NCBI RefSeq assembly: GCF_008806775.1
Contig: NZ_WAEM01000002.1
Coordinates: 186,001 to 250,000, forward strand
Length of the DNA: 64,000 bases
Origin: Flavobacterium luteum
Lineage (GTDB): Bacteria > Bacteroidota > Bacteroidia > Flavobacteriales > Flavobacteriaceae
Reading direction: 5' to 3'
In this document: positions 16,366 through 52,045 of the stretch, piece after piece
Layout of the letters: every line of letters starts with the position of its first letter
Position numbering within the stretch: the first letter of the stretch is position 1
Notes under the pieces: generated by a model
What the model was told of the DNA's origin: nothing
Seen by the model: only the letters and a program-made list of their open reading frames with translations
The model's database searches: none
Program-made: the position numbers and the translations under genes

Positions 16366-16405
16366 AATTCAAAAATAGAAATAATTGTGGTTTGAAAACT
16401 GTATT

Positions 16406-16556
16406 TATAGCCTCGATTGCAATGGAAATCCTTTTTTGATAAAATGTATTTTTTCTTGAAAATTCAGAACGACCAACGGAAGTTCCTGAATTTGCTTAGA
16501 AAAAACCATTTTAGATAAAAAGGTTGTAATGAAAAGCGGGAGATAGCTCCTTAAAA
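16406..16556. repeat. Dispersed hairpin repeat, copy A
   Basis: About 150 bases that recur, diverged, at 49827-49977 in the same orientation. Shared blocks include AAAATGTATTTTTTCTTGAA, CGACCAA near the centre and CATTTTAGA followed by an A-rich run. The element folds as one long interrupted hairpin: outer arms AAAATG/CATTTT, then TTTTTTCT/AGAAAAAA, then AAATTCAG/CTGAATTT, then AAC/GTT closing a GACCAACGGAA loop. It lies 10 bases after the stop of the ABC-F gene. Confidence 0.75.
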
Positions 16557-16566
16557 TGAAAAAACT

Positions 16567-18474
16567 TTACAAATTATCGATTTCTTCTTGAACCAATTCC
16601 CAATCTAAAAGCAATTGGTCTAATTCTTTCTTTTTCTTGTTGTATGCCATAAAAAACTTAGCATCTTCTACGTGTTTGTCGTAATTAGAAGCCAGCATTT
16701 TGTCGTCGTTTTGTATGTCTTTTTCTAACTGCTTGATTTGACTTTCTACCTTACTCAACTTGTTTTGCAAGGATTTTCCTTTTTTCTGATCTTCGTAGGA
16801 AGCTTTGTTGCTTTCTTTAGGAGAAGCTGATTTTTGAGCATCTTTTTTCTCGACTTCACGCATGTTTTCCATGTTGCGCTGCTCTAAGAAATAGTTGATG
16901 TCTCCTAAATATTCTTTGATTTTTTGGTCTTTGAATTCATAAACCAAGTTTGACATTCCTTGCAAAAAATCCCTATCGTGAGATACTAGAAGTAGCGTTC
17001 CTCCGAATTTTTGAAGTGCCGCCTTCAAAACATTTTTAGATTTTATATCCAAATGGTTGGTAGGTTCATCCATTAGCAATACATTGATGGGCTGCAGTAA
17101 CAATTTGCATAATGCCAAACGGTTTCTTTCGCCACCAGATAGGACTTTTACCTTTTTCTCGACATCATCGCCACGAAACAAGAATGAGCCTAGCATATCG
17201 CGTACTTTCATTCGGTTGGTGTCCATTGCGGCATCTTCCATGGTTTGCAGTAGTGTAATTTCGCCATCGAGATATTCTGCTTGATTTTGAGCGAAATAAC
17301 CCAACTGTACGTTGTGTCCCAATTTAATTGAACCTTGATACTCAAACTCATCAACTATGGCTTTGATAAAAGTGGATTTTCCTTGACCGTTTTGCCCAAC
17401 AAAAGCAATTTTGCTTCCACGTTCTACTAATAAATTAATATCTTTTAGTATCACTTTATCGCCATAACTTTTAGTAACATTATCTGCTTCAATAACAACT
17501 CTTCCTGGCTCTTTTGATACTGGAAAAGTAATGTTCATTACTGAATTATCGTCTTCATCGACCTCAATGCGCTCTACTTTATCTAATTTCTTAATTAACG
17601 ACTGTGCCATAGAAGCTTTGGAAGCTTTAGCACGGAATTTTTCGATTAATTTTTCGGTTTCTTCTATTTTCTTGGCTTGGTTTTTTTGGGTTGCCAATTG
17701 TTTTTCGCGAATTTCATGACGTAATTCAAGGTATTGAGAATAGGGTTTATTGAAATCATAAGCCTTACCAAGAGAAATTTCGATGGTTCTATTGGTTACG
17801 TTGTCTAAAAACATTTTATCGTGCGAAACAATTACTACAACTCCTGGGTAATTTCTAAGGAAACTTTCCAACCAAATGATACTTTCGATATCCAAGTGAT
17901 TGGTTGGCTCATCAAGAAGCAATACGTCATTGGCTTGTAATAATAATTTAGCCAATTCTATTCGCATGCGCCAACCACCAGAAAATGTTTCAGTTTGATT
18001 GTCGAAAACTTCTCTTTTAAAACCCAATCCCAAAAGAATCTTCTCAGTATCGCCTACATAATTGTAACCGCCTAATAATTCAAACCGATGGGTATAATCG
18101 GATAAATCTTCGATAATTTGACTGTATTCATCACTTTCATAATCGGTTCTCGTAACCAATTGATGATTGATTTCTTCTAATTTTTTTTCAACAATCTTAA
18201 TTTCAACAAATGCTTCATAGGCTTCTTCAAGAACAGTTCTGCCTTGTTCAAAATCGATATCTTGACGTAAAAAGCCCATTCGAACTTCCTTCTCGGTAGC
18301 AATACTTCCCGAATCTGGTTCGAAATCTTTTGCTAAAATTTTAAGCATAGTCGATTTTCCAGCACCATTTTTACCTACAAGACCAACACGGTCTCCCGCT
18401 CCTAAACGAAATGTTACTTCTTCAAATAAATATGAACCTCCGAACGAAACGGATAAATTATGAATATTAAGCAT
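16567..18474 (-). CDS. ABC-F family ATP-binding protein
   Basis: 635 residues with two ABC ATPase domains and no membrane helices. Walker A motifs GKNGAGKST (near 37) and GQNGQGKST (near 365); ABC signatures FSGGWRMR and LSGGERNR; Walker B LLLDEPTNHLD and LLMDEPTNHLD. The linker between domains is rich in charge (PtIM region) and the C-terminal 90 residues form a lysine/glutamate-rich coiled coil, as in Uup/YdiF-like members. ABC-F proteins act on the ribosomal E site to help translation or protect against antibiotics; which applies here cannot be told. Confidence 0.93.
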   Translation of the reverse strand: MLNIHNLSVSFGGSYLFEEVTFRLGAGDRVGLVGKNGAGKSTMLKILAKDFEPDSGSIATEKEVRMGFLRQDIDFEQGRTVLEEAYEAFVEIKIVEKKLEEINHQLVTRTDYESDEYSQIIEDLSDYTHRFELLGGYNYVGDTEKILLGLGFKREVFDNQTETFSGGWRMRIELAKLLLQANDVLLLDEPTNHLDIESIIWLESFLRNYPGVVVIVSHDKMFLDNVTNRTIEISLGKAYDFNKPYSQYLELRHEIREKQLATQKNQAKKIEETEKLIEKFRAKASKASMAQSLIKKLDKVERIEVDEDDNSVMNITFPVSKEPGRVVIEADNVTKSYGDKVILKDINLLVERGSKIAFVGQNGQGKSTFIKAIVDEFEYQGSIKLGHNVQLGYFAQNQAEYLDGEITLLQTMEDAAMDTNRMKVRDMLGSFLFRGDDVEKKVKVLSGGERNRLALCKLLLQPINVLLMDEPTNHLDIKSKNVLKAALQKFGGTLLLVSHDRDFLQGMSNLVYEFKDQKIKEYLGDINYFLEQRNMENMREVEKKDAQKSASPKESNKASYEDQKKGKSLQNKLSKVESQIKQLEKDIQNDDKMLASNYDKHVEDAKFFMAYNKKKKELDQLLLDWELVQEEIDNL

Positions 18475-41136: not shown

Positions 41137-41166
41137 TTGTAATTCTAAAAATAAAGATTACTTTTG
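41137..41166 (+). promoter_or_regulatory. Promoter of rpsO
   Basis: TTG (41137-41139), 19 bases, TACTTTTG (41159-41166): an ideal match to the Bacteroidota consensus, giving a leader of about 48 bases before rpsO. Confidence 0.75.
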
Positions 41167-41221
41167 CACCGTCTTACAATAGATGTATGACATACATAAT
41201 AATCATTTAAATAATATTAAA

Positions 41222-41491
41222 ATGTACTTAACTAAAGAAGTAAAAGCGGAAATTTTCGCTAAACACGGAGGAAAAGCAGAAAACACTGGAAAATCTGAAT
41301 CTCAAATTGCATTGTTTACATTCAGAATTTCGCACTTAACAGAACATTTGAAAAAAAATCGTCACGATTACAATACAGAACGTTCACTAGTATTGTTAGT
41401 AGGTAAAAGAAGAGCTTTGTTAGATTACTTGAAGAAAACAGAAATCAACAGATACCGTGAGATTATCAAAGAATTGAATATCAGAAAATAA
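41222..41491 (+). CDS. rpsO: 30S ribosomal protein S15
   Basis: 89 residues from the ATG at 41222 (MYLTKEVK); an upstream ATG at 41183 would add 13 residues not found in S15. Motifs FRISHLTEHLKKNRHDYNTE and LVLLVGKRRALLDYLKK contact 16S rRNA. The 5' leader may host S15 autoregulation as in other bacteria, though I see no clear structure. Followed by a terminator and then pnp, the classic rpsO-pnp order. Confidence 0.97.
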   Translation: MYLTKEVKAEIFAKHGGKAENTGKSESQIALFTFRISHLTEHLKKNRHDYNTERSLVLLVGKRRALLDYLKKTEINRYREIIKELNIRK

Positions 41492-49826: not shown

Positions 49827-49977
49827 TAATTGCCCCAGATGGAAGTGGAAAACCTTTTTTAGAGAAAATGTATTTTTTTCTTGAACTTAAAAAGCGACCA
49901 AAGAAGCTCATTTAAGTTTTTAGAAAAAAGCATTTTAGAAAAAAAGCTTGTAACGCACAGCTGGATTAAGGCTCGAC
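49827..49977. repeat. Dispersed hairpin repeat, copy B
   Basis: Second copy of the repeat at 16406-16556. Same order of blocks: GTGGAAAACCTTTTTT, AAAATGTATTTTTTTCTTGA, GCGACCAAAGAAGC, AGAAAAAAGCATTTTAGA. The upper stem pairs AACTTAAA (49884-49891) with TTTAAGTT (49911-49918), and AGC/GCT close the loop GACCAAAGAA (49896-49905). Lies between the ftsZ terminator and yqeY. The remaining bases of this 379-base gap are AT-rich without a feature. Confidence 0.75.
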
Positions 49978-50044: not shown

Positions 50045-50083
50045 AAAAAGCCTGAAAATTTACTAGAAATTTTCAGGCTTTTT
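50045..50083 (-). terminator. Terminator after ftsZ
   Basis: Perfect 16-bp stem AAAAAGCCTGAAAATT / AATTTTCAGGCTTTTT; T tract on the minus strand, 18 bases after the ftsZ stop. Confidence 0.85.
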
Positions 50084-50101: not shown

Positions 50102-52045
50102 TTAGTCTACATTGTCATGAAGAAAAGAATTGTTAGATCGCAATTGCGGATCGTTGTTACTATCAGTTCCTATTGAAGTGCGAGATGCGTTATTAGTTAT
50201 TTGTGTGTTTGAAAGGTCTATTCCCGATCTTTTGTATGCTGGCTCTCTTTCTAATTCGTCCATACGTGATGGGTTGTTGTGAAACTTATAATTGAAATCT
50301 TTTAACTTTCTTCTTCTTTCGTCAGCTCTCAATTTTAAAGTATCTTCGATTGACATATCTATTGGAGAAACCTCTTCGTAAGATGCTGAAAAATTAGAAA
50401 CTTCTTCCACTTTTTTCATCGTAAAATTTAATTCCTCAGCTATTGGCTCAGAAACATTTTTCTCTACTTGTTTTGAATTGAGCAAATCGTTTTCAACTTC
50501 CATATATTCTTCTAACGAATATTTGATGATACCTTTTTCATTCAATTCAGTCATTGGAACCATTTCAACTGCTTGGTTTACTACTATGTTTCTAGTTTCG
50601 TTAGTTAATTCGAATAGAATTTTATTTTCATCAATAGCAGCTGTTTCAATTGTTTTTTCTCTAGTTAGTGGCAAGTCGAAAGAGAATGCAGCTTGCTCAG
50701 GTTCTTTTACAACAATATGATCTATAACTTTAATTTCCTTTACATCAGGAATTACAGGAGCAGAAACCACAAAATCGATTGGTTTTTCAGGCGAAACGAT
50801 TTCGAAAGTAACATCTAAATTTTTGATAAATTCAGATATTATAACCAATTCATTTTCGTTAATTAATGGTTCTTGAACGGCTTGAAAATCATCTTCAATC
50901 AATTCAAAAACAATTTTTTCTTCTGATTTAGTCTCAACTATTTCCGTATTGAATTGAAAAGACTCAACTGTTTTATTGGTTAAATCACGTTCTAATTTAT
51001 GCTCACCATCTAAAGAGTGGATAATTTTTTTTGGTTCAGTATTTACTATTTCGTTTTGTTGTTCGATATTGAAACCTGTTGCAATAATAGTAACTGCAAT
51101 TGATTCTCCAAGAGTTTCGTCCTCTCCAACTCCCATGATAATATTGGCGTTATAACCTGCTTCTGCTTGAATATGATCACTAATTTCTCCTATTTCGTCG
51201 ATAGTAATTTCATTCGAACCAGAAACGATAAGCAACAATACGTTTTTAGCCCCTGAAATTTTATTATCATCTAAAAGTGGAGAATCTAATGCTGAAATAA
51301 TAGCTTCTTTTGCGCGATTTTCTCCCAGTGCGGTAGCAGAGCCCATAATTGCAGTACCGCTATTTGACAATACTGTTTTAGCATCTTTTAAATCAATATT
51401 TTGCGTGTAATGGTGTGTAATGACTTCCGCAATTCCCCGTGAAGCAGTTGCTAAAACTTCATCTGCTTTAGAAAATCCAGCTTTGAAACCTAAATTTCCG
51501 TACACTTCTCTCAATTTGTTGTTGTTGATAACAATTAAAGAGTCTACTTGTTTTCTAAGTTTATCTACACCCAATAGAGCTTGTTCATACCTAACTTTTC
51601 CTTCAAACTGAAATGGTTTTGTAACAATACCCACAGTAAGAATTCCTCTTTCTTTGGCCAATTGTGCAATAACTGGAGCAGCTCCAGTTCCCGTTCCTCC
51701 ACCCATTCCTGCGGTGATAAAAACCATCTTGGTGTTACTGTCTAACATTTTTTCGATTTCCGCAATACTTTCAATAGCAGATTGTTGCCCTACTTCTGGA
51801 TTTGCTCCTGCGCCAAGACCTTCAGTAAGGTTAAGTCCTAATTGAATTTTATTGGGTACAGCACTATTTTGTAAAGCTTGTGCATCAGTATTACAAACAA
51901 TAAAATCAACTCCTTTGATTCCTTGTTTGAACATGTGATTAATAGCATTACTTCCGCCTCCACCTACTCCAATCACTTTAATTACATTAGATTGGTTTTT
52001 TGGTAAATCAAATGAAATACTTCCAAAATCTGAGTTGCTCGTCAT
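50102..52045 (-). CDS. ftsZ: Cell division protein FtsZ
   Basis: Tubulin-like GTPase forming the Z ring. 647 residues: N-terminal GVGGGGSNAINHM, tubulin signature GGGTGTG (115-121), globular part to about 330. Then an unusually long linker of some 270 residues rich in Glu, Val and Ile, and a conserved C-terminal block with ELEREPAYKRSGIDL that probably serves as the partner-binding peptide. The long linker is a Flavobacteria feature. Last gene of the division operon, after ftsA. Confidence 0.97.
   Translation of the reverse strand: MTSNSDFGSISFDLPKNQSNVIKVIGVGGGGSNAINHMFKQGIKGVDFIVCNTDAQALQNSAVPNKIQLGLNLTEGLGAGANPEVGQQSAIESIAEIEKMLDSNTKMVFITAGMGGGTGTGAAPVIAQLAKERGILTVGIVTKPFQFEGKVRYEQALLGVDKLRKQVDSLIVINNNKLREVYGNLGFKAGFSKADEVLATASRGIAEVITHHYTQNIDLKDAKTVLSNSGTAIMGSATALGENRAKEAIISALDSPLLDDNKISGAKNVLLLIVSGSNEITIDEIGEISDHIQAEAGYNANIIMGVGEDETLGESIAVTIIATGFNIEQQNEIVNTEPKKIIHSLDGEHKLERDLTNKTVESFQFNTEIVETKSEEKIVFELIEDDFQAVQEPLINENELVIISEFIKNLDVTFEIVSPEKPIDFVVSAPVIPDVKEIKVIDHIVVKEPEQAAFSFDLPLTREKTIETAAIDENKILFELTNETRNIVVNQAVEMVPMTELNEKGIIKYSLEEYMEVENDLLNSKQVEKNVSEPIAEELNFTMKKVEEVSNFSASYEEVSPIDMSIEDTLKLRADERRRKLKDFNYKFHNNPSRMDELEREPAYKRSGIDLSNTQITNNASRTSIGTDSNNDPQLRSNNSFLHDNVD

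Follow-up and report, generated by a model that had tools for sequence, protein, structure and literature searches.

Long-stem Flavo-1 repeats of Flavobacterium: a hairpin under selection that may act as DNA

The 64,000-nucleotide stretch of Flavobacterium luteum DNA analysed here (the window) contains two related repeats, copies A and B, each built around a long hairpin, which raises the question of whether selection acts on their fold and, if so, on what kind of molecule. The stems and loop from which the original prediction set out are present in both copies, with the GACCAA loop at 16471 in copy A, enclosed by AAC/GTT, and at 49896 in copy B, enclosed by AGC/GCT. The two copies, their parts and their surroundings in the window are as follows.

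16405..16547, + strand (the Rfam strand): copy A, a long-stem Flavo-1 element (cmscan, RF01705, 53.3 bits)
16430..16526, + strand: long upper hairpin of copy A, 78 nt against 11 RF01705 model positions (alignment and fold)
16460..16493, + strand: apical stem of copy A, with arms AAATTCAG (16460-16467) and CTGAATTT (16486-16493) and the loop AAC-GACCAACGGAA-GTT, conserved in the 38-sequence alignment
16546..16554, + strand: right end of copy A, GCTCCTTAA (flank profile of 141 long forms)
16567..18474, - strand: ABC-F family gene (NF000355, 420.9 bits, cut-off 380), its stop codon just past copy A
41159-41224, + strand: S15-Flavobacteria ribosomal protein leader (RF03161, 64.4 bits)
49828..49971, + strand: copy B, a long-stem Flavo-1 element with degenerate ends (cmscan, RF01705, 48.4 bits)
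49884..49918, + strand: apical stem of copy B, with arms AACTTAAA (49884-49891) and TTTAAGTT (49911-49918) and the loop AGC-GACCAAAGAA-GCT
50045-50083: strong terminator-like hairpin between ftsZ and copy B
50102..52045, - strand: ftsZ (TIGR00065, 358.7 bits), the upstream neighbour of copy B in gene direction

Both copies matched RF01705 on the + strand above its gathering score of 42 (E 9.9e-9 for copy A and 2.3e-7 for copy B), and they are members of Flavo-1, the family that the original prediction had named for comparison. Copy A had RNA folding z-scores of -2.97 on the + strand and -3.64 on the - strand, and copy B of -2.52 and -2.89; these values and the RF01705 scores are beyond chance. 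The copies are identical at 112 of 156 aligned columns. The right end of copy A, GCTCCTTAA, reads on the other strand as a T-tract followed by AGGAGC, while both ends of copy B appear degenerate by eye. R1, a covariance model built from 38 long-form sequences with copy A itself among them, scored copy A at 128.4 bits (G000:C22:202408-202548) and copy B at 108.3 bits (G000:C22:235831-235972).

The window hairpin is the long-stem form of Flavo-1 (RF01705), an already-known scattered repeat of Flavobacterium. The two forms share an outer domain and their occurrence in Bacteroidetes, but the long form adds to the 76-position RF01705 model an inner hairpin that has an internal loop and a conserved loop of its own; this hairpin is of fixed length and replaces 11 model positions. 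Lengths ran from 138 to 146 nt in 141 long forms, which were picked by their loop within an extraction window of roughly 110-170 nt, and the element measures about 141 nt, or about 155 counting the flanking T-tract. The whole element folds into a single long hairpin. Its internal loops are conserved and, read on the Rfam strand, rich in purines; its end loop, conserved too, is GAGC-GACC-NNN-GGAA-GCTC on the + strand of the window. On the anti-Rfam strand the tip is GAGC-TTCC-NNN-GGTC-GCTC, in many cases with TTTCTAA before it and CAAGAAA after it. Rfam types Flavo-1 as an sRNA of unknown function, and the Flavo-1 entry in Weinberg 2010 (PMC2864571) marks it 'y' for RNA and 'n' for both cis-regulatory element and riboswitch. 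Literature searches on Flavo-1 and RF01705 returned no prior description of the long subfamily.

Two copies by themselves are insufficient to prove covariation, so the case rests on an alignment of 38 long forms, from which 8 of 46 had been left out beforehand because they were of odd length, carried an extra insert or were cut. Paired cells made up 92.0% of this alignment compared to 75.6% after shuffling, double changes were found in 28 of 40 pairs, and covariation was 0.448 compared to 0.153 for shuffled alignments and 0.055-0.153 for sliding partners. The observed values were reached in 0 of 500 shuffles, and the number of pair types in 4 of 500; because the long-form sequences are related, these counts are not probabilities. 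The compensatory change around a conserved loop that had been proposed from the window copies therefore extends to the wider set, in which further copies covary rather than fail to, and the proposal of selection on structure is upheld: the fold of long-form Flavo-1 is under selection. Strong covariation by itself, however, need not imply an expressed RNA.

The repeat is dispersed, as had been claimed. RF01705 gave at least 30 matches at E <= 0.001 in the F. luteum genome, 29 of them over the cut-off (150 of 804 candidates scored). With R1, the full-length long forms of this genome numbered at least four (13 candidates scored), namely copies A and B, C37:164289 and C22:157927, the latter two being absent from the 30 RF01705 matches. 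RF01705 matches, counted up to 35 per genome, occurred in 113 of 121 genomes drawn from the same genus, which the named relatives suggest is Flavobacterium, and three single-contig genomes had 64, 81 and 47 matches. The loop pattern, with at most one mismatch, was present in 81 of these 121 genomes, compared to at most one hit per genome for the reversed control pattern; among named genomes it turned up in no fewer than 118 stretches, mainly from Flavobacterium. The same long-form architecture was seen in Profundicola, Brumimicrobium and bins assigned to Schleiferiaceae, Bacteroidales and Bacteroidetes. R1 matched 23 of 247 genomes from across the phylum, of which 15 belong to the genus and 8 do not; among the matches listed, hits of at least 130 nt outside the genus came from G249 alone, a member of the same family. 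On three contigs labelled Chitinophaga pinensis or Lentimicrobium (L233, L301 and L311), the flanks of the element are orthologous to Flavobacterium loci, and these contigs may therefore be misbinned.

Such dispersal invites comparison with known repeats. ERIC and Correia-type repeats are found outside genes as imperfect palindromes of about 100-155 nt, in many copies and in longer and shorter forms. By description the long form is like them, being a long imperfect palindrome in many copies that lies between genes (118 of 119 long forms are outside any ORF of at least 100 aa, and one is inside), but unlike them it has no mobilising transposase that we could find. REP/BIME sequences with their RAYT genes are likewise dispersed extragenic palindromes; REPs carry a GTAG head, which is rare at the Rfam-strand end of long forms (about 1% of 141). 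That Flavo-1 is palindromic and intergenic would fit mobilisation by a RAYT (Y1) transposase in the manner of REP sequences, and the F. luteum genome has four RAYT matches (NF047646), the best of them over the cut-off. That best of the four is accompanied by its own repeats, with no Flavo-1 adjoining, and Flavo-1 was found in 3 of 30 RAYT loci of about 3.4 kb each, compared to about 1 to 2.4 expected from a density-based estimate. At least 31 Flavo-1 matches, counted up to 35 per genome, occur in 11 of the 20 RAYT-less genomes listed (of 28), while G018, G020 and G033 have a RAYT and lack Flavo-1. RAYT genes thus have the repeat beside them at close to the estimated chance rate, repeat and transposase do not co-occur in these genomes, and we regard movement by RAYT as very improbable.

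A RAYT gene (NF047646) at L031:1288-1842 on the - strand has inverted repeats on both sides, at 1209-1240, 1949-1980 and 2073-2104, apparently a REP system that coexists with Flavo-1 in one genome. Two Flavobacterium genomes are among those tabulated in a survey of REP sequences from 2025 (PMC12306157). Two further links were examined by eye. At three sites the sequence breaks next to the element looked like turnover of intergenic DNA, which lends no support to integron-like cassette insertion there, and three viral hits to the loop, considered for a link to phage, are without the long hairpin.

Sites shared between relatives show how the element is kept. In other species as well, a whole or partial long form lies at or just past the stop codon of the ABC-F gene, in 21 of 49 other loci, 15 of the 49 having been fetched because the match extended past the stop codon; by eye, several of the remaining loci have a terminator-like hairpin in place of the element. 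Distances between elements at this site correlate with those between the genes (Mantel r 0.54, p 2e-4, n=20), which indicates mainly vertical inheritance, with some mismatches between the nearest relatives of the element and those of the gene. Excluding the loop, median identity of the element was 0.77 over 246 orthologous pairs; since the loop served to select the elements, losses go unsampled here. At several sites the element stays while the DNA beyond it turns over. F. restrictum has two copies, at unrelated sites with unrelated flanks, that share 94% identity over a stretch coinciding exactly with the element plus T-tract, while versions in its relatives are only 64-77% identical at those two sites, and this is one clear case of sequence replacement between sites. 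No clean empty site was found, and at the ABC-F site relatives were too diverged. TA, which would be duplicated on insertion of an ERIC/Correia-like element, is common at one end of the 141 long forms and present in about half or less at the other. Of the small mobile element that had been suggested, dispersal and one case of sequence replacement stand, while no mobilising enzyme was found and the RAYT association is unsupported.

We then considered how the element relates to transcription and to neighbouring genes. Upstream of long forms, TAnnTTTG, which we take to be the consensus promoter motif of Bacteroidota, was not enriched on either strand (7 of 139, 8.4 expected; 3 of 141, 7.1 expected). 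E. coli-type promoter-like sites, a weak guide in Bacteroidota, numbered 7 around copy A (2.2 expected), five of them on the + strand and three reaching into the element, and 3 around copy B (1.9 expected), all on the - strand. The genes next to 102 long forms (of 119, those with both neighbours) were arranged in tandem in 73 cases, divergently in 17 and convergently in 12. Among these neighbours 117 of 204 were sense to the anti-Rfam strand (p=0.04, not independent), as were 22 of 48 in an earlier sample of 24 long forms. For all forms in the F. luteum genome, 39 of 57 neighbours were antisense to the Rfam strand, so gene orientation around Flavo-1 is not fully random there, and at each of the two window copies the Rfam strand runs antisense to the gene on either side. 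In the F. psychrophilum study PMC9723704, the Flavo-1 hits described lie sense or antisense to transcribed regions alike, and many lie in none, a picture of no consistent transcription.

A cis-regulatory leader or riboswitch was rejected because long forms have no fixed orientation to a downstream gene. An apparent absence from between convergent genes (0 of 24) proved to be small-sample noise in view of the 12 of 102 above, and what looked like a constant distance of about 90 nt from the element to the start codon was traced by eye to the promoter regions lying between the two and given up. No terminator-like site was found within copy A or copy B; the scan, which considers loops of 3-8 only, gave none around copy A and two around copy B, outside the element. 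The flank profile of the 141 long forms is the better evidence, and it shows no run of T after the hairpin on either strand, the sequence there being A/G-rich, which does not fit an intrinsic terminator. Given the weak gene orientation, the lack of terminator-like sites in the copies and the missing T run, the suggestion of a 3'-end processing or stability element was not supported.

Orientation was also compared to the direction of replication, with origin and terminus set by eye from the GC skew of sampled stretches and the direction of rRNA genes. Among the matches listed, 69 of 93 R1 hits of at least 120 nt, from six genomes, pointed along the replication fork (p=3e-6 for departure from one half); the 93 long hits and 57 shorter ones made up 150 of 324 matches. 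Shorter forms, again among the matches listed, lay along the fork in 83 of 147 (150 of 192 matches) and 38 of 57 (150 of 324). The search by loop pattern had given 34 of 40, a bias that the covariance model softened to the 69 of 93. Genes themselves ran along the fork in 562 of 919 cases (61%, four of the six genomes), and compared to this the bias of long forms is only modestly higher (p=0.010). It may reflect a role as DNA, or only that stable hairpins are lost from one of the two template strands.

If the fold is selected, mismatches within the stems may indicate on which strand. Isolated inner-stem mismatches in the 141 elements, read on the Rfam strand, were G.U in 94 cases and A.C in 45; two positions hold 24 of the 94, and without them the ratio is 70:45. 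Per element, G.U was in excess in 61 and A.C in 26. Across 33 orthologous pairs (of 34 chosen), single changes gave 59 G.U and 23 A.C alongside 51 double changes, and 246 dependent pairs gave 398:217 in stems and 115:138 in the outer domain. The outer domain of the elements was reversed, with 10 G.U and 55 A.C, 50 of the latter at two neighbouring positions. Neither the pairs nor the elements behind these counts are independent. As the inner stems favour G.U over A.C there, the Rfam strand is probably, on weaker support, the one whose fold is selected; the predicted fold was more stable on this strand in 36 of 38 long forms as DNA and in 30 of 38 as RNA. The same changes bear on whether the element could be a decaying neutral repeat with no function, its stems kept paired by template switching during replication, a process that can yield compensatory changes according to an argument made in PMC8794818. 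Double changes in the 33 orthologous pairs were mostly isolated (36 of 42 runs were of length one), and together with the single changes they look like stepwise change, which argues against pure template switching. The G.U/A.C asymmetry of the inner stems argues the same way, as do the conserved mismatches of the internal loops, which switching would tend to erase, and we consider a neutral repeat improbable.

The remaining question is whether the selected hairpin acts as RNA or as DNA. For Flavo-1, a candidate RNA in Rfam, this becomes directly testable through the long subfamily, its conserved loop, the hint of a selected strand, the sequence replacement between sites and the absence of promoter enrichment or a fixed gene orientation. 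A structured small RNA, with the Rfam strand transcribed and its hairpin bound by a protein or cut by a double-strand RNase, would account for the covariation, the G.U excess in both counts (94:45 and 59:23), the purine-rich internal loops, the more stable RNA fold of the Rfam strand and the excess of E. coli-type sites around copy A. It sits less well with the lack of enrichment of the Bacteroidota-type promoter on either strand, with the weak neighbour orientation and the antisense position of both window copies to their flanking genes, and with the hits reported in PMC9723704, sense and antisense alike and often outside transcribed regions. The wobble ratio of about 2:1 is also well short of the 22:2 seen in tRNA acceptor stems, a crude control drawn from 35 ARAGORN hits of which at least one is probably false. 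Overall we find an RNA possible but doubtful. The absence of TAnnTTTG enrichment, the weak gene orientation, the fork bias, the G.U excess and more stable DNA fold of the Rfam strand, the sequence replacement between sites and the persistence of the element lead us to favour DNA. Against it, the G.U excess would also suit an RNA and is reversed in the outer domain, the fork bias is only modestly higher than that of genes and weaker in short forms, gene orientation is not fully random in F. luteum, and E. coli-type sites are in excess around copy A. The reading we prefer, and to which we give about an even chance, is that long-form Flavo-1 is a palindromic element scattered between the genes of Flavobacterium and of some other Bacteroidota, similar to ERIC and Correia repeats and probably acting as DNA. 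By analogy with ERIC, Correia and REP-type repeats, the acting form would be a single strand or a cruciform; as a folded nucleic acid it would probably be recognised by a protein, and copies may replace one another's sequence by recombination while being retained at orthologous sites. RAYT was tested as a partner protein, and none was found for long-form Flavo-1. A narrower version of the DNA reading, in which a strand-oriented, fork-aligned hairpin of single-strand DNA is bound by a replication, repair or recombination protein and spread by recombination, so that 'Flavo-1 RNA' is not an RNA at all, seems to us rather unlikely.

Other observations concern Flavo-1 elements at large. In G042, each of the six 16S genes has a short Flavo-1 about 0.66-0.72 kb upstream, with the Rfam strand antisense to the operon, and short Flavo-1 elements are found about 0.6-0.8 kb upstream of 16S genes in four of six cases in G109 and in at least two in G036. 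By eye, palindromic repeats of the GCGAGGTACGAAGCAATC, CTCGATACTCGC and TTCACTGAACTCC types are nested in a loop or arm of Flavo-1; such nested palindromes occur at L006, L009, L019, L028, L029, L030, L051, L074 and L075.
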